Below, one piece after another: positions 11,618 to 48,571 of a stretch of DNA of 48,925 nucleotides. Made by a program: the position numbers and the translations under genes. The stretch spans positions 1 to 48,925 of the forward strand of contig JAKAOG010000005.1 of NCBI GenBank assembly GCA_021823325.1. The letters run 5' to 3'. The notes beneath the pieces are model-generated. The model made no database searches, had not been told where the DNA came from, and saw only the letters and a list, made by a program, of their open reading frames with translations. The first letter of the stretch is position 1. Every line of letters starts with the position of its first letter. Source of the stretch: an archaeon (GTDB lineage Archaea > Thermoproteota > Nitrososphaeria > Nitrososphaerales > Gagatemarchaeaceae).

Positions 11618-11638
11618 CAGCTCGTCGGGAGGGTGCAC

Positions 11639-11646
11639 GTTATAAC
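11639..11646 (-). promoter_or_regulatory. Palindromic TATA box of the ThiR-like gene
   Basis: GTTATAAC is a perfect palindrome centred about 26 bp from the ATG at 11617. Confidence 0.6.
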
Positions 11647-11661
11647 CGACTTATTCACTTG

Positions 11662-11669
11662 CTTATAAG
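11662..11669 (+). promoter_or_regulatory. Palindromic TATA box of the ECF S-component gene
   Basis: CTTATAAG is a perfect palindrome centred about 26 bp before the GTG at 11691. It is 23 bp from the opposing box, so one bound regulator could cover both promoters. Confidence 0.6.
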
Positions 11670-11690
11670 GCCGCGCCGCCGGGGCGCTCT

Positions 11691-12269
11691 GTGCAAACGG
11701 AAGCCGGACCCACCCCGGACAAAGGACCGAAGAAGTCTGTCGCGCTCGCCGTGGTGGCTGTGTTCTCGGCGCTGATCGCCGTCGGGACCATCTTCTCCAT
11801 ACCTTTGCCGCCGCCGGTGTACGAGATCACCTGGTCTCCTGCCATATACCTCGCGCTCGCGGCCCTGGTGGACCCTTGGACCGCGTTCGACGCCACGGCC
11901 ATCGGAGGTTTCCTCGGGGAGGCGTTCAACGTGGCGTTCAAGGGCGGCGGGTCTCCGATCTATCCGTTCGGGATGGTATGGGCGAGGGGACCTGAAGTCT
12001 TCATCGTGGCATGGGCGAGGACGAAGGGGCCGAAGGCAATGGCGGCCGCGATGGTCGGTGCGACAATCTTCGAGACCCTGGCGTTCTTCTTCTCCGACTG
12101 GGGGTTCTACGCATATGGCCTCTTCTCCTACAGCGTCCCCGCAGGGTCGACCCCTCTGGGGCTGGCGTCTTTCGACTTCGCCACACTGCTTGACATCGCG
12201 TACATCCCCGTCGCGCTCCTCCTGATCCGGCAGGCAAGGCCTGCGTTCAGAAGGCTCGGTTACGGGTAG
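11691..12269 (+). CDS. ECF transporter S-component-like protein, candidate thiamine or precursor uptake
   Basis: This 192-residue protein has about five to six membrane helices. The first is SVALAVVAVFSALIAVGTIF, and a tryptophan-rich PVYEITWSPAIYLALAALVDPW segment follows, as in ECF S-components. Its position, diverging from a ThiR-like regulator and 9 bp ahead of an AIR-synthase-like gene, makes thiamine or a pyrimidine/thiazole precursor the best guess. This is inference from context. The leaderless GTG start agrees with the CTTATAAG box. No ATPase partners are in the window. Confidence 0.68.
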   Translation: MQTEAGPTPDKGPKKSVALAVVAVFSALIAVGTIFSIPLPPPVYEITWSPAIYLALAALVDPWTAFDATAIGGFLGEAFNVAFKGGGSPIYPFGMVWARGPEVFIVAWARTKGPKAMAAAMVGATIFETLAFFFSDWGFYAYGLFSYSVPAGSTPLGLASFDFATLLDIAYIPVALLLIRQARPAFRRLGYG

Positions 12270-14115: not shown

Positions 14116-15060
14116 TCAGACCAGTCCGCCATTCAGCATCGTCAAGAGCATCTTGCGGAACAGTACCCCGGACGCCGAGTAGACGACCTTTGTGTTAGGT
14201 TTCTTCTTCAGGATGCCCAGCTCGTCGACGATGGTGGCGCCACGGGACGGCCCATAGGTGTTGTCCACCTCGACGAACCTTTGCCGCGTCTCGGTGGCTA
14301 CCCTGGGGTTGAGGACGACCGCCATGGTGAGGCTGTCGGTGCACACGATGCCGTCCTGTTTGTATTCTTGCTTCATGTACCTGCGCACCTGCCTGTTCAC
14401 GGCCAGGAAGAACTTGGACTCGGTGGTGCCGATCTTCTCGATGTCGGCTATCTCTCCGGGTCCTAGGATCCCATGCCTCATGCATATCTCCCATCCCAGC
14501 ATCGTCGGATGGAGCCCAGACTCCATGACGATCTTCGCGGCGTCAGGGTCGACCCAGATGTTGAACTCTGCAGCCGGAGTGGTGTTCCCGAGGTACTGGT
14601 TGGCGCCCCCCATGAAGTAGAAGCGCCTGATCTTCTTCACTATGCCGGGGTCCTTCTTGATCGCGAGGGCGAGGTTCGTCATCGGGGCTATCTCGACGAA
14701 GTCGATCTCTCCCGGGTTGCTGTTGATCGTCTCCACGATGGCGTCGACTGCGTGCTTCGACTCCGCTCTCTGGCGGGCGAGAGGAAAGTTAGAGTTCCCC
14801 ATGCCGTCGTTACCGTGGACCTCCTCAACCGTCCGAAACGTCCTCAGCAGTGGGTTCCTGGCCCCCGGATAGACGGGGACCTTGCCTGACTTGCCTGCCA
14901 CCTGTATGGTGTAGAGCGCGTTCTTCACGTGCTGGTCAAAGTCGACGTTTCCGCAGTTGATGGTGATACCCTCCAGTACGGCGTCCTTCGCCTTCAGCGC
15001 CATCATGATCGCGATGGTGTCGTCCCCTGCTGTGTCGGTGTCTAGGAGGATGCGTCTCAT
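14116..15060 (-). CDS. Inosine/uridine-preferring nucleoside hydrolase
   Basis: This protein of about 314 residues hydrolyses the N-glycosidic bond of nucleosides. The calcium-binding N-terminus is ILLDTDTAGDDTIAIMMAL. Other family features are HGNDGMGNSNFP, the IAPMTNLALAIKKDP helix, and FYFMGGANQYLGNTTPAAEFNIWVDPDAA. The ATG at 15060 gives this classic N-terminus, although the frame stays open far upstream. A box at 15082-15090 sits about 26 bp away. It is convergent with deoC, which processes the deoxyribose side of the same salvage route. Confidence 0.93.
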   Translation of the reverse strand: MRRILLDTDTAGDDTIAIMMALKAKDAVLEGITINCGNVDFDQHVKNALYTIQVAGKSGKVPVYPGARNPLLRTFRTVEEVHGNDGMGNSNFPLARQRAESKHAVDAIVETINSNPGEIDFVEIAPMTNLALAIKKDPGIVKKIRRFYFMGGANQYLGNTTPAAEFNIWVDPDAAKIVMESGLHPTMLGWEICMRHGILGPGEIADIEKIGTTESKFFLAVNRQVRRYMKQEYKQDGIVCTDSLTMAVVLNPRVATETRQRFVEVDNTYGPSRGATIVDELGILKKKPNTKVVYSASGVLFRKMLLTMLNGGLV

Positions 15061-15081
15061 GGCGGCTCCCCGGGCCTCCTG

Positions 15082-15090
15082 TGATAAGAA
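15082..15090 (-). promoter_or_regulatory. TATA-like box of the nucleoside hydrolase gene
   Basis: TTCTTATCA on the minus strand is centred about 26 bp from the ATG at 15060. Confidence 0.55.
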
Positions 15091-15108
15091 GCCTCTTCTG
15101 CAAGGACT

Positions 15109-15118
15109 TGTATAATCG
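15109..15118 (+). promoter_or_regulatory. TATA-like box of the RIO2 kinase gene
   Basis: TGTATAATCG region, centred about 31 bp before the GTG at 15145. Confidence 0.55.
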
Positions 15119-15144
15119 AGCTCCGACGCGGCGTCCGAAGAGGA

Positions 15145-16032
15145 GTGTCGAGCACAGAGCGGGCCGCCAGGTCGCTGAAGTCTCTGAAAGACGAAGAGTG
15201 GAGGACACTGGCGGGGCTGGAACGGGCGGCGACGGGGTTCGGGACCCCCGACCTCGGAAGGCTCGCGCGGATGAGCAGGCTCCCACCGGACAGGGTCAGT
15301 TTTGCGACGGACGCGCTCGAGAGGAAGGGGCTCGCCATGAGGCGGGGAGGAGGCTACGTCCTCACAAGGGAGGGGGTGGAGGTGATGGCGCTCAAGGACT
15401 ACGTGAAGAAGGACCTCATCTTCGCTCTGGGGGCGATAATCGCGAAGGGAAAGGAGTCCGACGTGTATGAAGCCCTCACGGAGGAAGGAGAGGCCTACGC
15501 GCTGAAGCTCTACAAGATAGGGAGGGTCAGCTTCACCAACGTCAGGAAGAAGAGGGCGAGGGAGTCCGCGGAGTTCAAGAGCTGGATGACGGCGAACTAC
15601 GATGCGGCCAGGCGGGAGTATGACGCACTGAAGAAGCTCGAGGGGCTGTCCCACGCGTTCCCGAGAGCCGTAGCCTACAGCAGGAGCACCGTCCTTCTTG
15701 AGGAGCTGTCAGGGGTGAGGCTGTCACAGCGACCAGACCTTCAGGACGCCGAAGCGGCTCTGACGTCTGTGTTCGAGTCGATGCGCACGGCGTTCACGAT
15801 GGGAGGGATGGTCAACGCCGACCTGAGCGAGTACAACCTCCTGACCGACGGGGCGTCAGTGTGGCTGATAGACTGGCCCCAGGCCGTCGGGACTTCTCAC
15901 CCCAACAGCGCGGAGCTCCTGATGCACGACGTGAGAGCTGTGGCGGCGTTCTTCCGGAGAGCATACGGGATCGAAGTGGACGAACAGAAGGCGTTCGACT
16001 ACGTCAGCGGGAAGACTACTACCCTGGGATGA
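15145..16032 (+). CDS. rio2: RIO2-type serine protein kinase
   Basis: This 295-residue protein has the RIO2 layout: an N-terminal winged helix (about 1-90, ending GGGYVLTREG) followed by the RIO kinase core. The flexible P-loop is AKGKESDVYEAL, and the catalytic loop is NADLSEYNLL, with Asn-Ala in place of His-Gly before the Asp. The metal-binding Asp is in WLIDWPQAVGTSHPNSAELL. In archaea and eukaryotes RIO2 takes part in late small-subunit ribosome maturation. The start is GTG. It diverges from the nucleoside hydrolase and precedes other RNA- and DNA-processing genes. Confidence 0.94.
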   Translation: MSSTERAARSLKSLKDEEWRTLAGLERAATGFGTPDLGRLARMSRLPPDRVSFATDALERKGLAMRRGGGYVLTREGVEVMALKDYVKKDLIFALGAIIAKGKESDVYEALTEEGEAYALKLYKIGRVSFTNVRKKRARESAEFKSWMTANYDAARREYDALKKLEGLSHAFPRAVAYSRSTVLLEELSGVRLSQRPDLQDAEAALTSVFESMRTAFTMGGMVNADLSEYNLLTDGASVWLIDWPQAVGTSHPNSAELLMHDVRAVAAFFRRAYGIEVDEQKAFDYVSGKTTTLG

Positions 16033-17265: not shown

Positions 17266-17598
17266 GTGCTCACGAAAGTCGTGCAGGCTTCCATAGCTTC
17301 GATCCTAGACTCACTGAAGAGGTCGGACCTTGAGGACGCCAAGAGGAAGATTCAGGCGCTCATGCCCGAAGTGAAGACCGAACGCGAAAGAGGGAGCCTG
17401 ATGGCAGCCTCCGGCATATACTCGAGCATGTCGAAGGCCAAGGGAGGCGCCATGCAGACGTGGGACAGCGCCAGGGTCGAGAGGGCGGCGAAGTCGATAA
17501 CGAAGAGCCAGTTGGCCGACGATTTTGATTTCGGATATGCGGATACGCTTCTGAACTATTCGAGGCTTACAGCGGAAAGCCCACAGTCCGCAGCGTGA
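17266..17598 (+). CDS. Small conserved helical protein of unknown function
   Basis: I do not recognise the family. The product has about 110 residues, is charged and almost wholly helical (SILDSLKRSDLEDAKRKIQALMPEVKTERER), and has no membrane segment or cysteine cluster. GTG at 17266 and GTG at 17281 are both possible, because the TTAAATAC box (17244-17251) is only about 19 bp from the first and 33 bp from the second. The 3' end overlaps the end of the convergent EMC6-like gene by 32 bp. Its place after the RadB-like gene may be accidental. Confidence 0.65.
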   Translation: MLTKVVQASIASILDSLKRSDLEDAKRKIQALMPEVKTERERGSLMAASGIYSSMSKAKGGAMQTWDSARVERAAKSITKSQLADDFDFGYADTLLNYSRLTAESPQSAA

Positions 17599-17911
17599 AG
17601 AGAAGCATCCACGTAAAGAGGAAGACCATCGTGAATCCGCCGATACCTGTGGTGTAGACCTTCCCCTGCTGTTCCCGCGCGAGCCCCTTGTACCACGTGA
17701 AAAGGGCGCCGTAGTAAGTGACGAGGTATACCCCTATCGCGATGCTCACCCCTATCGTCCAGTCTGTGCCGTACGCCCCGGACAGCCCCTCCGTGACCAG
17801 ACCCGCGACCACCGCCGAGCCGATCCTGAACCAGTATAGCTTATCAAACGCCGCAGGAGGAAGCGGATTCGTGGCCGAGCTTTCTGGCTTCGAGGTCTTG
17901 GTGCTCGCCAA
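17567..17911 (-). CDS. EMC6/Rab5-interacting-protein-like membrane protein
   Basis: This 114-residue protein has three predicted helices (WFRIGSAVVAGLVTEGLSG, IGVSIAIGVYLVTYYGALF, IGGFTMVFLFTWMLLFTL). The pattern of a Gly-rich third helix after a basic loop matches the EMC6/Rab5ip family, a subunit of the ER membrane protein insertase that has archaeal relatives. The TTG start at 17911 is supported by TTAATATAG near 17940-17948, which lies inside the divergent RqcH gene. The 5' ends of the two genes overlap by 41 bp. No EMC3/Oxa1-type partner is visible in the window. Confidence 0.7.
   Translation of the reverse strand: MASTKTSKPESSATNPLPPAAFDKLYWFRIGSAVVAGLVTEGLSGAYGTDWTIGVSIAIGVYLVTYYGALFTWYKGLAREQQGKVYTTGIGGFTMVFLFTWMLLFTLRTVGFPL
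17839..17848 (+). promoter_or_regulatory. TATA-like box of the RqcH gene, inside the EMC6-like gene
   Basis: GCTTATCAAA is centred about 28 bp before the GTG at 17871. It lies within codons 22-25 of the divergent EMC6-like gene. Confidence 0.55.
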
Positions 17912-19655
17912 GGAGATCGACTTTGCTCTTCGTGGCGCCTATATTAACAACATCTACTCTTACGGCTCGTCACAGCTTTTCAGGTTCAGGAAGCCCCACG
18001 GGGACGACATCTGGCTGGTGGTCTCTCCGAAGAAGGGGGCGTGGGTCTCGGCGAACGTCGCCGAGAGGGAAGAGACGAGCCAGTTCACCTCGAAGCTGAG
18101 GGGTGAGCTCGAGAGGGCGCGCTTCTCTTCCTCCACACAGGCCGACCTAGACCGCGTCTTCCTGCTAAGGTTCGAAGGGAACGAAGAGAGGACCCTCATA
18201 GTGGAGCTAATGCCTCCAGGCAACATCATCGTCACGGACGGGAGTGGGAGGATACTCCTCGCGCTGAACGAGGTGAGATCCGAAACCAGGCGCATCGTCA
18301 GAGGAGGGGTGTATTCCCCGCCGAAGCAGAGCAGGCTGAGCCCGGCCAGAGTGAACGCCGAAGAAGTCGCGAAGATGCTGGGCGAAGAGCCTACCCTTGG
18401 TCGGGCGATAGGCCGGCACGTCGGCTTGCCCAGGAAGTACGTTTCTGACGCCCTCATGAGGCTCGGCGCCGACGACAGGACCACTTCGGAGGAGATGGCC
18501 GGAAGGGAGGAGGAAGCCGCCAGCACCCTTCGAAAGATGGTGGAAGACGCGCAAGAGCGTCCCGCCCCTTGCATCTGCGAGACGCCTTCAGGTCCGGAGC
18601 TCTACGCCTATCGCCCCCAGGGGCAGAAGGTGGTCACCGGAGGGGAGACCGTTTCCGCCCTCTGCGACAGGCTGCTGTTGGACGAAGCGCTCACCTCCGC
18701 GCCGAGGTCAGAGCCAGAAGATTCGAAACGAAAGGAGATCGAGGCGACGGTCTCGAAGCTGAGGACGGACGCAGACGCTCTGAAGGCGAAGGCTGCGAAA
18801 GCCCGCGAAGCGGCGGCCGCTGCAAGAGGTTCTCCTCTTGAGGACGCGATCTCCCTCCAGCGGAGCGTGGGGCTCCAGCCCGCGAGGGGACCCGCGTCGC
18901 CCGAGTCAGCGGCTTCCGCGCTGTTCACGTTCGCGAAGGACCTCGAGTCCCGGGCCGCGGTGAGCCTCGAGTCCGCGGACAGGCTGGAGAAGAAGGCTCG
19001 CAGGGTGCCCGAAACGAAACATGCGAGGACCAGGGCGATAGTCAGGAAGAAGGGAGAGTGGTTCGAGAAGTTCAGATGGTTCGTCACGGGAGAAGGGCGG
19101 CTTGCGATCGGGGGAAGGGACGCCCAGTCGAACTCTGCGATACTCGGGAGGCACATGGACGCGAACGACACTGTCTTTCACGCCGACCTTTTCGGGTCTC
19201 CCTTCTTCGTCCTGAAAGGGGGGAGAGACCAGACAGAAGAGGAGGCGAGGGAAGTCGCGCAAGCGACGGTAGCGTTCAGCAGCGCCTGGAAGACGGGCCT
19301 GGGTTCGGCCGACGCGTACTGGGTTTCCCCCGACCAAGTGAGCTCAGCCGCTCCGAGCGGAGAGTACCTTTCAAGAGGGAGCTACTCGATCAGGGGCAAG
19401 AAGAACTTCATCCCCAAGATGATGGTGGAGCTGGCACTCGGGGTCGACAGGGACGGCAGGGTCACTGCCGGTCCGGAGGCGGCAATCAGGCTCAGGTGCG
19501 AACACTATGTCGTGCTGGTCCCTCACAACGAGAAGTCGTCCGAGACGGCGAAGAGAGTCCACAAGGACCTTTCTGGCGACGCCGCCTCGACCACCCTGGA
19601 TGAAGTACAGAGGGCGCTCCCGGCCGGGGGCGGAAAGATAATCCGGAAACTCTGA
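17871..19655 (+). CDS. rqcH: RqcH/NEMF/Tae2 homologue (NFACT family) of ribosome-associated quality control
   Basis: This 594-residue protein has the full NFACT architecture. The NFACT-N domain begins SGFEVLVLAKEIDFALRGAYI and includes IVELMPPGNIIVTDG. HhH-like and long coiled-coil regions follow (about 285-400, rich in Ala/Lys/Glu). NFACT-R has the signature WFVTGEGRLAIGGRDAQSN near residue 413, then DLFGSPFFVLKG. The family binds 60S/50S-type subunits with stalled peptidyl-tRNA and promotes C-terminal tailing. GTG at 17871 is chosen over upstream in-frame codons, which would translate the antisense of the EMC6-like gene. Confidence 0.92.
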   Translation: MAELSGFEVLVLAKEIDFALRGAYINNIYSYGSSQLFRFRKPHGDDIWLVVSPKKGAWVSANVAEREETSQFTSKLRGELERARFSSSTQADLDRVFLLRFEGNEERTLIVELMPPGNIIVTDGSGRILLALNEVRSETRRIVRGGVYSPPKQSRLSPARVNAEEVAKMLGEEPTLGRAIGRHVGLPRKYVSDALMRLGADDRTTSEEMAGREEEAASTLRKMVEDAQERPAPCICETPSGPELYAYRPQGQKVVTGGETVSALCDRLLLDEALTSAPRSEPEDSKRKEIEATVSKLRTDADALKAKAAKAREAAAAARGSPLEDAISLQRSVGLQPARGPASPESAASALFTFAKDLESRAAVSLESADRLEKKARRVPETKHARTRAIVRKKGEWFEKFRWFVTGEGRLAIGGRDAQSNSAILGRHMDANDTVFHADLFGSPFFVLKGGRDQTEEEAREVAQATVAFSSAWKTGLGSADAYWVSPDQVSSAAPSGEYLSRGSYSIRGKKNFIPKMMVELALGVDRDGRVTAGPEAAIRLRCEHYVVLVPHNEKSSETAKRVHKDLSGDAASTTLDEVQRALPAGGGKIIRKL

Positions 19656-41060: not shown

Positions 41061-41972
41061 CTAAGCGGAGACGGTCGTAAGCCACTTCTCGTACTTCTTT
41101 ATCTTCCCGTGAGTCGCCTGGTCGTACAGCTTCGCCATGAGGTTGGTGACGGGCGTGCCGTCGTACCCGATCCTCCTGCCGTCTATCTCGCGGACCTTCG
41201 CGATCCCCGCCGCTGTGCCGGTGAAGAAGACCTCGTCCGACGTGTAGAGCTCCTCTCTGGTGGCGTCGTTGCGGTAGAAGGTGATGTCCTCGTCCTTTGC
41301 GAACTGTATCACCGTGTCTCGGGTTATCCCCCTAAGGATCCCGGAGGTGGCAGGCGGGGTGCTGAGGACGCCGTCCTTCACCCTGAAAATGTTCTCCCCT
41401 GACCCTTCCGTCACCTTCCCTTCGGAGTTGAGCAGTATCGCCTCGTCGAAACCAGACGTCAGAGCCTGCATCTTGGCGAGCCCCGAGTTGGCGTAGTTCG
41501 CGGCGCTCTTGGCCTGCACCGGCATCGCGCGGGAGTCTATCCTCGCCCAGCTGGATATCGTGGCCCTGACCCCCTTCTCGGCGTCCCCCAGATACGACCC
41601 CCATTCCCATGAGGCGATGGCCACCGAGACCTTGCTCGTGAGTGGGTTCAACCCCATCTCGCCGTAGCCTGTGAACGCGATGGGACGGATGTAGCACTCC
41701 TTCGCAGGGTTGCTCCTGACGAGCTCCGCACACGCCTCCGCGATCTCTTTCAGAGAGTACCCCAAGTCCATGCGGTAGATCTTGGCGCTGTTCAAGAAGC
41801 GCTCGAGGTGGGCGTCGAGCCTGAAGATTGCCGTCCCCTTCGCTGTGGAAAACGCCCTGATTCCTTCGAAGACAGCCATCCCGTAGTGGAGGCCGTGGGT
41901 CAGCACGTGTACCTTGGCGTCGTCCCATGGGACGAGCTTCCCGTCCATCCAGATCTTCTTCTGCGCCTTCAT
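41061..41972 (-). CDS. ilvE: Branched-chain amino acid aminotransferase
   Basis: This 303-residue fold-type IV PLP aminotransferase interconverts Leu, Ile and Val with their 2-oxoacids. It starts KIWMDGKLVPWDDAKVHVLT and contains HYGMAVFEGIRAF, YIRPIAFTG, and the PLP Lys in VQAKSAANYANSGLAKMQAL. The phosphate-binding EGSGENIFRVKDG and GILRGITRDTVIQ regions follow. The ATG at 41972 is about 29 bp from a CTAAATACC box (41997-42005). Confidence 0.95.
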   Translation of the reverse strand: MKAQKKIWMDGKLVPWDDAKVHVLTHGLHYGMAVFEGIRAFSTAKGTAIFRLDAHLERFLNSAKIYRMDLGYSLKEIAEACAELVRSNPAKECYIRPIAFTGYGEMGLNPLTSKVSVAIASWEWGSYLGDAEKGVRATISSWARIDSRAMPVQAKSAANYANSGLAKMQALTSGFDEAILLNSEGKVTEGSGENIFRVKDGVLSTPPATSGILRGITRDTVIQFAKDEDITFYRNDATREELYTSDEVFFTGTAAGIAKVREIDGRRIGYDGTPVTNLMAKLYDQATHGKIKKYEKWLTTVSA

Positions 41973-41996
41973 CTCGATTCACGGCGCCGGAACACG

Positions 41997-42005
41997 GTAT
42001 TTAGG
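41997..42005 (-). promoter_or_regulatory. TATA-like box of ilvE
   Basis: CTAAATACC on the minus strand is about 29 bp from the ATG at 41972. It sits back to back with the box of the divergent thiolase gene. Confidence 0.55.
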
Positions 42006-42030
42006 GACAGCGCCTAACAGCACAGAGCGA

Positions 42031-42038
42031 TTTATTAT
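42031..42038 (+). promoter_or_regulatory. TATA-like box of the second thiolase gene
   Basis: TTTATTAT is centred about 28 bp before the ATG at 42063. It is too close to the ATGs at 42042/42045 for those to be transcribed. Confidence 0.6.
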
Positions 42039-42062
42039 CGCATGATGTGCAAGTCAGCCCCA

Positions 42063-43238
42063 ATGCGTGACCCCGTCATCGTGTCTGCGTGCAGGACCCC
42101 GATAGGCAAGTTCGGCAAATCGCTCGTCGGCGTGCCAGCGACAGAGCTGGGCGCCCTCGTGATAGAGGAGGCGATGAAGAGGGCGAAGCTCAAACCAGGG
42201 GGAGTCGACGAAGTGATAATGGGGAACGTGGTGTCAGCAGGCCTGGGCCAGAATCCGGCAAGGCAGTCGGCGGTGCATGCCGGGGTGCCGTTCGGAGTGG
42301 GCTCTTTCACCGTGAACAAGGTCTGTGGGTCGGGGCTCAAGGCGGTGATGCTCGCAGCCCAGTCGATAAAGGCCGGCGACAACGAAGTCGTCGTTGCGGG
42401 CGGGATGGAGAGCATGAGCAACGTCCCGTATCTGGCGAAGGGGGTCAGGTGGGGGACGAAGTTCGGGGACGCCAGGCTTCTCGACGGGATGATAGCCGAC
42501 GGCCTCTGGGATGCGTACCATGACTACCACATGGGGGTGACCGGGGAACACGTCGCGAAGAGGTTCCACATCACCAGGAAGGAAGCAGACGAGTTCGCCT
42601 ATGAGAGCCATATGAAAGCGGCGAAGGCGTCGGGAAGCGGAGCCTTCGACGAGGAGATAGTCGACGTCAAGATCGGGAAGGAAGAAGGGGTCGTGAATTT
42701 CTCCAAGGACGAGTGCATACACACGGACACCACGGTCGAGAAGCTCGGCAAGCTGAAGCCCGTCTTCAAGCCCGACGGAGTGCTCACCGCAGGCAATTCG
42801 TCCCAGCTCAGCGACGGCGCGTCGGCCGTCGTGGTCTGCTCTCAGGAGGCCGCCGACAGGCTAGGGATGAAGCCCCTCGCGAGGATAAGAGGGTACGCTA
42901 CGGGCGGGCTCGAGCCTGCGAGGGTCATGGAGGCGCCCATCCCGACCACGAAGGCCCTGCTGAAGAAGATGAAGATGAGCGTCGATGACATCGACATCTT
43001 CGAGCACAACGAAGCTTATTCGACCGCTTCGATCGCCGTCCGCAGGGCACTGGAAGTGGATGAAGAGAAGTTCAATCCGTGGGGCGGGGCCGTGGCCCTT
43101 GGGCACCCCATAGGCTGCAGCGGGGCCAGGGTGCTCACGACGCTGATATACGGACTGAAGAGGACAGGGAAGAAGACGGGGCTGGCCACCCTCTGCCTGG
43201 GCGGAGGGAACGCGGTCTCTATGATTGTCCAGGTTTGA
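42063..43238 (+). CDS. Acetyl-CoA C-acetyltransferase (thiolase)
   Basis: This 391-residue AtoB-type thiolase starts MRDPVIVSACRTPIGKFGKS. The nucleophile Cys is in VNKVCGSGLKAVMLA, the substrate His in FEHNEAYSTASIAV and GGAVALGHPIGCSGARVL, and the second catalytic Cys in LATLCLGGGNAVSM. It makes or cleaves acetoacetyl-CoA. Two earlier ATG codons in frame (42042, 42045) lie upstream of the expected transcription start, so ATG at 42063 is used. It is convergent with the acyl-CoA synthetase gene, overlapping by 20 bp. Confidence 0.95.
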   Translation: MRDPVIVSACRTPIGKFGKSLVGVPATELGALVIEEAMKRAKLKPGGVDEVIMGNVVSAGLGQNPARQSAVHAGVPFGVGSFTVNKVCGSGLKAVMLAAQSIKAGDNEVVVAGGMESMSNVPYLAKGVRWGTKFGDARLLDGMIADGLWDAYHDYHMGVTGEHVAKRFHITRKEADEFAYESHMKAAKASGSGAFDEEIVDVKIGKEEGVVNFSKDECIHTDTTVEKLGKLKPVFKPDGVLTAGNSSQLSDGASAVVVCSQEAADRLGMKPLARIRGYATGGLEPARVMEAPIPTTKALLKKMKMSVDDIDIFEHNEAYSTASIAVRRALEVDEEKFNPWGGAVALGHPIGCSGARVLTTLIYGLKRTGKKTGLATLCLGGGNAVSMIVQV

Positions 43239-47414: not shown

Positions 47415-47809
47415 GCGCCCCGAGCCCTGCGGGCCCTGGCGAGCCGTTTCTTCCTCAGTAGAGCCCTGAGATAGTTCCTGGACTCGCGCAGTTCCTTTAT
47501 CGCCTGTCGGAAGTCGCCGAGACGGAAGTCATCAGACCCTTTGTTGAGGTTCTTCAGGGCGAAGCGGAGCGCCTGCCTTTCGTCGGGGACGTCGTAAGGC
47601 TTCAGCTTGATGAACCGTCCAGGGTTCTCTTCGTCGAGGTCGAACTTGATGAAAGCGACGCTCTTCTCGACTTTGACGTAGGCGAGCCAGATAGAAAGGA
47701 GCTCGGCTTTTTTCGGCTCCCCCGAAAGTGTCTTCAGCGCGTCCTCGATCCTCTGTCCTGCTTCGGCGAGGTCTGAAGCCGTCTCCTCCCTCCACTCGCC
47801 GTCGCTCAC
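47411..47809 (-). CDS. Small helical protein, unknown function
   Basis: I do not recognise the family. The product of about 132 residues has predicted helices (SDLAEAGQRIEDALKTLSG), a strand pair KSVAFIKFDLDEENPGRFIKL, and a very basic C-terminus (LRALLRKKRLARARRARG) that could bind RNA. The frame is open up to a GTG at 47917, but that would overlap the divergent gene and its TATA box. GTG at 47809 is the first start downstream of that box. The start remains uncertain. It is convergent with the eL22-like gene, overlapping by 4 bp. Confidence 0.6.
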   Translation of the reverse strand: MSDGEWREETASDLAEAGQRIEDALKTLSGEPKKAELLSIWLAYVKVEKSVAFIKFDLDEENPGRFIKLKPYDVPDERQALRFALKNLNKGSDDFRLGDFRQAIKELRESRNYLRALLRKKRLARARRARGA

Positions 47810-47860
47810 TTCGACTCGCCAGATTCCCGAAGAAGCGACAAGGGGCGTTTTCGCGATTGG

Positions 47861-47870
47861 ATTATTTATA
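47861..47870 (+). promoter_or_regulatory. TATA-like box of the duplicated-domain gene
   Basis: ATTATTTATA is about 31 bp before the TTG at 47897. It may also serve the divergent small gene. Confidence 0.55.
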
Positions 47871-47896
47871 ACCAAGACGGATTCGGCGGCGACTGT

Positions 47897-48571
47897 TTGC
47901 CGAAGAAAGACGAGCACATAGGCGGTGCGTGCTATATCGGTCTCAGTTCGCTGCTCGACCTCGGAAGGCTCTCCTGCGCCCTCGAGAGGGCTCCGTTCCC
48001 GCTGTTCGCCTTCAAGGAGGGAAAGGGGACGCGGATCGCCGCGCAGGCAGACCTGTTCATGGGGACGCCGATATTCTACTATTTCGACAACGGCACCGTG
48101 GATGAGTTCCTCGCCTACAGGATAACCGGGGAAGGTGAGGAGGTGCAGTTCGTCAGTTCGGCGAGCAACGCGTCGTATCTCTACGCGCCCGTGATCAGGG
48201 TGCAGCGGATGCCGAAGCCCCTCGAAGAGAAGACAGGGTTCATGGACAAGTTCATCTCAGTGGAGGTCGAGAACATCCCGAGCCTGGTGAAGGTCGGAGC
48301 CTACAAGACTCTCTTCGAAGAGCCACCGCTCCCCCTCTTCGCTTTCCAGGACGGCCGCGGGTGGGTCATCGGCACCTTCGCCAGGATAGACGACTACGAA
48401 GAGGCGTCCATATTCTTCTACGCGAGGGTTAAGGAAGAGCCGTCAGGGTTCCTCAGGTACAACTACGACAGGATAACCGAGACCACCTATGTCAAGAGGA
48501 CCGACGAGCCGGGCTTTCACTACATCAAGGTGGTGAAGCTGACCGCTCCGCACCCTCTGGTCGAGTTCTAG
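47897..48571 (+). CDS. Conserved protein with internally duplicated domain, unknown function
   Basis: I cannot name this 224-residue protein. It contains two similar halves. APFPLFAFKEGKGTRIAAQA followed by a strand ending IFYYF (about residues 33-68) is echoed by PPLPLFAFQDGRGWVIGTFA and IFFYA (about 142-176). Both read P-x-PLFAF-x-x-G-x-G. It is beta-rich, has no membrane helix or signal, and is probably a cytosolic tandem-domain fold. The TTG at 47897 fits the box at 47861. Confidence 0.65.
   Translation: MPKKDEHIGGACYIGLSSLLDLGRLSCALERAPFPLFAFKEGKGTRIAAQADLFMGTPIFYYFDNGTVDEFLAYRITGEGEEVQFVSSASNASYLYAPVIRVQRMPKPLEEKTGFMDKFISVEVENIPSLVKVGAYKTLFEEPPLPLFAFQDGRGWVIGTFARIDDYEEASIFFYARVKEEPSGFLRYNYDRITETTYVKRTDEPGFHYIKVVKLTAPHPLVEF

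Follow-up and report, generated by a model that had tools for sequence, protein, structure and literature searches.

A conserved 41-bp head-to-head coding overlap between an EMC6-like gene and rqcH, with candidate promoters inside each other's reading frames

The locus and its two genes

The window, i.e., the whole stretch of 48,925 nucleotides that was analysed from an archaeal contig (Gagatemarchaeaceae, JAKAOG010000005.1), contains two divergent genes, one encoding RqcH and the other a small EMC6-like membrane protein, whose 5′ ends run into each other (Table 1).

Table 1 Features of the emc6/rqcH locus (positions within the window).
Feature	Position	Strand	Remarks
RqcH (NFACT) gene, 594 aa	17871..19655	+	GTG start; NFACT_N and NFACT-R domains
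EMC6/OPTI-like membrane protein gene, 114 aa, three transmembrane helices	17567..17911	-	TTG start
Head-to-head coding overlap, 41 bp	17871..17911		third (wobble) positions of both frames coincide, phase 123:213
Candidate RqcH TATA-like box CTTATCAAA	17840..17848	+	-31..-23 from GTG; EMC6 codons 22-24 (TTT GAT AAG)
Candidate EMC6 TATA-like box TTAATATA	17940..17947	-	-36..-29 from TTG; inside RqcH codons 24-27

Functionally, RqcH acts on stalled large subunits, on which a C-terminal tailing activity is known for the B. subtilis protein (PMC8373112). The window protein is RqcH as judged by its domains and by its score against the NCBIfam model RqcH_arch (424.4 bits, with a curated equivalog cut-off of 400), which agrees with the preliminary description; its tailing activity is putative. 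The GTG is followed by MAELSGFEVLVLAKEI, the conserved archaeal RqcH N-terminus, and in several relatives the start is fixed because an in-frame stop lies 9 nt 5′ of this codon, so that the start given in the preliminary description stands as well.

The reading frame of the smaller gene is bounded upstream by an in-frame TAG at 17941, and from codon 2 to codon 33 it contains no ATG, GTG or TTG, the next such codon being the GTG at 17812 (codon 34). A start at this GTG, which the preliminary description had named as the alternative that would undo the overlap, was rejected, as it would remove half of the first transmembrane helix and the codon is not conserved. TTG is a weak start codon, and its use here is inferred from its conservation. 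The first 20 residues form an N-terminal extension that was modelled with low confidence and is absent from homologues outside the genus, which start ~18 residues later, near an FDK motif.

Taken alone, the window protein scored 10.9 bits against PF07019 (EMC6/OPTI), below the curated Pfam cut-off of 23.3; 20 of its 24 aligned homologues matched this family (best E 1.8e-7), and its best sequence match in the PDB, a weak one, was OPTI. A Pfam EMC6 search of the genome returned other weak matches, with the window gene absent among the matches listed, and the family was therefore settled by alignment and fold. An alignment-based AlphaFold model (pLDDT 86; the single-sequence model was poor) adopts the EMC6/OPTI fold, and its top PDB structure matches were OPTI 7tut_9 (probability 1.00) and EMC6 7ado_F and 6ww7_F (both 0.99), none with an E-value <0.001. 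On this modelled fold and the homologue matches, the small protein is EMC6/OPTI-like, as first proposed, with putative insertase binding: EMC6/OPTI proteins are partners of YidC-type insertases (PMC8675477), and the same genome encodes an EMC3/TMCO1 homologue.

Conservation of the overlap within the genus

The group carrying the overlap consists of soil and acid-site archaea. Conservation in relatives had been suggested as a check on the 41 bp thought to be read in both directions, and a search across 31 genomes of the genus found the overlap kept. RqcH was present in 23 of them, including all 13 with ≥90% completeness and ≤5% contamination, and EMC6 lay head-to-head with it in all 23. The pair is unseparated in 21 genomes, many of them close relatives, and in these the homologous start positions are offset by exactly 40 nt with zero indels over ~120 bp, a stretch that begins at the RqcH box and runs beyond the EMC6 box; this geometry stays exact although the sequence of the EMC6 linker (codons 14-21) varies. 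The overlap is identical, 41 bp with TTG, in 18 genomes, and G002 has an ATG one codon later, giving 38 bp. G005 and G010 carry CTG at the TTG position and another canonical start downstream, before the first helix. The coding overlap is thus firm at 41 bp in 18 genomes and at 38 bp in one, and less settled in G005 and G010. With TTG use taken from conservation, each coding start lies inside the coding sequence of the partner, which makes this a divergent overlapping pair.

The open antisense frame itself was rejected as evidence of coding, because stops in phase 123:213 need Tyr or His/Gln codons on the opposite strand, and the first 23 residues of RqcH include none of these. A fossil of the overlap was also sought in the outgroup G033, where similarity did not exceed that of shuffled sequence.

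Candidate promoters within the coding sequences

Third positions in the relatives are on average only 19% (RqcH) and 22% (EMC6) A/T. Against this background, wobble A/T of ≥90% across the 21 unseparated genomes was reached only at codons 25, 26 and 28 among 594 in RqcH, and only at codons 22 and 23 among 114 in EMC6. Similarly, T dominates at only three of the 41 conserved two-fold pyrimidine columns: EMC6 F22 and D23 and RqcH N26. The corresponding clustering probabilities are ~1e-7 and 5e-4 if columns are independent, which is optimistic given that the genomes are related. The RqcH box 9-mer is invariant in all 21 genomes; for EMC6, relatives have TTATTAAC, which lies three bases further upstream than the candidate box of the window. 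Ahead of the starts of the window's own genes, A+T content peaks at -32..-26, and the box positions therefore fit leaderless or near-leaderless promoters. The preliminary description had placed an RqcH TATA box in EMC6 codons 22-25 and an EMC6 box around 17943 (RqcH codon 25), and the A/T-forced wobble positions of both frames bear it out: synonymous sites support both embedded promoters, with the boxes themselves as candidates.

A bidirectional promoter with one shared TATA element does not describe the locus, in which two boxes are conserved, and lost, separately. Other divergent pairs in the window have spacers of ~50-90 bp with TATA-like boxes (11638-11691, 15060-15145, 41972-42063 and 47809-47897), including a symmetric CTTATAAG between 11638 (-) and 11691 (+).

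A natural separation of the pair

In G013 and G016 the two genes are 211 and 224 bp apart. Whether the protein tree is built from RqcH or from the EMC6 core, both genomes fall inside the overlapping ones, and the overlap is therefore older and was then lost. In front of their EMC6 gene lies a decayed copy of an RqcH 5′ end, its GTG changed to GTC, with an alignment score of 70-82 against L015 (shuffled maximum 32-34); this dead copy matches the RqcH starts of overlapping species, not the RqcH of G013 and G016 themselves. A recent origin of the new RqcH 5′ end from the fossil was rejected, as the two share no similarity, and it may stem from replacement or from an older duplication. The overlap was lost once within the genus, via a fresh RqcH 5′ end.

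The separated EMC6 gene has kept its TTG and its N-terminus, and a TTATAAA box precedes it at an unchanged distance. Inside this gene, the former RqcH box has changed from GAT AAG to GAC AGG, with TTT22 kept, and the RqcH codons that formerly held the EMC6 box now read GTG AAC AAC ATC. Judged from these codons, the separated pair has lost both box signals except TTT22, and each signal is found with the gene that it serves. The freed EMC6 N-terminus has a dN of 0.098 and a dS of 0.393, from 9 changes, which is only suggestive of selection on it.

The gene pair across archaea

In a phylum sample of 121 genomes, the EMC6-like gene was found in 78 besides the window's own, and in 72 of these, from at least 19 families, it is paired head-to-head with RqcH at a distance of no more than 1.2 kb. 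In the remaining six (G171, G173, G105, G163, G211 and G167) the EMC6-like gene is on a different contig from RqcH (two genomes) or 1.9 to 11 kb off (four). The head-to-head pair also occurs in Bathyarchaeota, Terraquivivens, a Thorarchaeote and a Hermodarchaeote, and probably in a Methanobrevibacter, where the EMC6 match is weak. In the literature searched, we found no description of this gene pair or of a functional link between its products.

Start-to-start spacers of head-to-head pairs across the order were estimated at ~23 to 340 bp, with L147 wider. Many spacers are 13-40 bp, which, if these genes are also leaderless, would leave no room for two separate core promoters. Candidate independent coding overlaps were seen in families f20, f28 and f49 (L186-L188, L197, L204 and L206-L216): ~7-28 bp in f20, perhaps 65 bp in f28 and perhaps 19 bp in one f49 genome, the start choice being uncertain for some of them. 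EMC6 and RqcH overlap in at least one other clade outside the genus, the window's genus is the clearest case, and the head-to-head arrangement long predates the overlap. In family f2 of the same order, six genomes that are 91-99% complete (G046, G062, G073, G081, G088 and G095) retain the EMC6-like gene and gave no match in an NFACT_N family search; loss or strong divergence of RqcH is possible there.

Alternative explanations

A true overlap would be absent if EMC6 translation began near codon 18-21 at a non-standard codon, with the TTG frame arising only as the antisense of a conserved RqcH N-terminus; even so, a real promoter would lie in RqcH, and EMC6 would have a longer leader of ~60 nt. 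Homologues outside the genus do start at about this place, RqcH leaves the antisense frame open for free, and the model gives residues 1-20 little confidence. We nevertheless regard such a late start as unlikely, since a canonical start occurs within EMC6 codons 3-21 in only one of the 19 other genomes, i.e., those with TTG or ATG at codons 1-2 (ATG, GTG and TTG are all missing there from the remaining 18), since both CTG genomes do have a canonical start downstream, and since the separated pair has kept TTG and extension free of the RqcH constraint. Even less probable, and in our judgment very much so, is that the A+T-rich synonymous sites are regulator binding sites or RNA-level signals rather than core promoters: conservation by itself names no factor, and wobble A/T is somewhat raised elsewhere too within the first 30 RqcH codons, but both boxes sit at the genome's usual promoter distance from their starts, and in the separated species each signal goes with the gene needing it.

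A real overlap could also be the product of neutral compaction, with no regulatory role and persisting because it is hard to undo. From the very short spacers of many families an overlap is a small step, and the genus has lost it a single time, through a fresh RqcH 5′ end, all of which makes this quite a serious, if tentative, possibility; head-to-head retention across the phylum argues against it insofar as the adjacency is used, which does not extend to the overlap itself.

Proposed mechanism

The reading that we consider likely is that an ancient emc6/rqcH pair has been compressed to a 41-bp overlap with reciprocal embedded promoters and likely mutual interference. The divergent genes would have been pressed together until their coding starts overlapped, leaving each core promoter within the coding sequence of the partner. 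The rqcH transcript would begin at about its own GTG (leaderless), via CTTATCAAA in emc6, and the emc6 transcript ~6 nt before its TTG (short leader), via the A+T-rich box in rqcH. The two promoters would thus face each other ~100 bp apart, each RNA polymerase would cross the promoter of the other gene, and the mRNA 5′ ends would be complementary over ~47 nt, both start codons included, with a predicted duplex energy of -105 kcal/mol at the inferred start sites. Mutual interference would be the likely outcome, leading to a fixed product ratio or to alternating transcription bursts. From sequence, we infer the transcription start sites, the use of TTG in the cell and the regulatory outcome, and the two genes may share expression control, probably through such interference. 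The preliminary description had proposed that the arrangement would couple expression; because the promoters face each other, interference between them or a fixed balance of the two products has at least the same likelihood as co-expression.

Comparison with known systems

Head-to-head coding overlaps are rare, as the preliminary description had held: one survey counted 331 divergent cases among ~15,000 overlaps in 58 genomes, with phase 123:213 the commonest among them (PMC2174442), and a second counted 457 among 42,055 (PMC2478687). In the second survey, each of the 75 cases that exceeded 60 bp was put down to a wrongly assigned start, and spurious divergent overlaps mostly arose from 5′ extensions with weak starts. 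The present pair shares with the catalogued ones the opposite strands, the starts inside each other and the phase; long cases in the catalogues were mostly attributed to misannotation, and what sets this pair apart is its starts conserved in 21 genomes, promoter footprints in both frames and a natural separation. The window overlap nevertheless bears two typical warning signs, a TTG start and a 5′ extension, which call for caution at the protein level.

Bidirectional archaeal promoters (PMC6640164) likewise transcribe divergently from a short region, but do so from a single TATA element used in both directions, their start sites lying ~49 bp apart, whereas here two separate facing boxes lie ~100 bp apart and the predicted transcripts overlap. 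The excludon (PMC7154746) is similar in that divergent genes have transcripts which overlap and could thereby interfere, here a prediction; it differs in that the overlap described here is coding at both 5′ ends and short (~47 nt), with mutual repression putative. The small protein resembles the archaeal EMC6-like partner of archaeal YidC/EMC3 in its fold and in the presence of an EMC3/TMCO1 homologue in the genome, and the available text of that account (PMC8675477) mentions no linkage to RqcH.

Implications

True divergent coding overlaps are hard to tell from annotation errors, and the EMC6/RqcH case adds conservation and the synonymous-site footprints of both promoters; the natural separation, which removed both footprints, strengthens it. 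More speculatively, and on balance doubtfully, EMC6 and RqcH could make up an ancient archaeal module in which membrane insertion is tied to ribosome-associated quality control, and they would have stayed head-to-head across the phylum because their facing promoters balance the two. The genus would be the extreme, its conserved dual-coding start region, in which each gene holds the promoter of the other, acting as a minimal mutual-exclusion switch. The wider gene pair, as seen in genome sequences, suggests that in archaea the quality control of stalled ribosomes has a functional link to an insertase partner, and it is a reasonable idea that RqcH and EMC6 may meet at membrane-bound stalled ribosomes.
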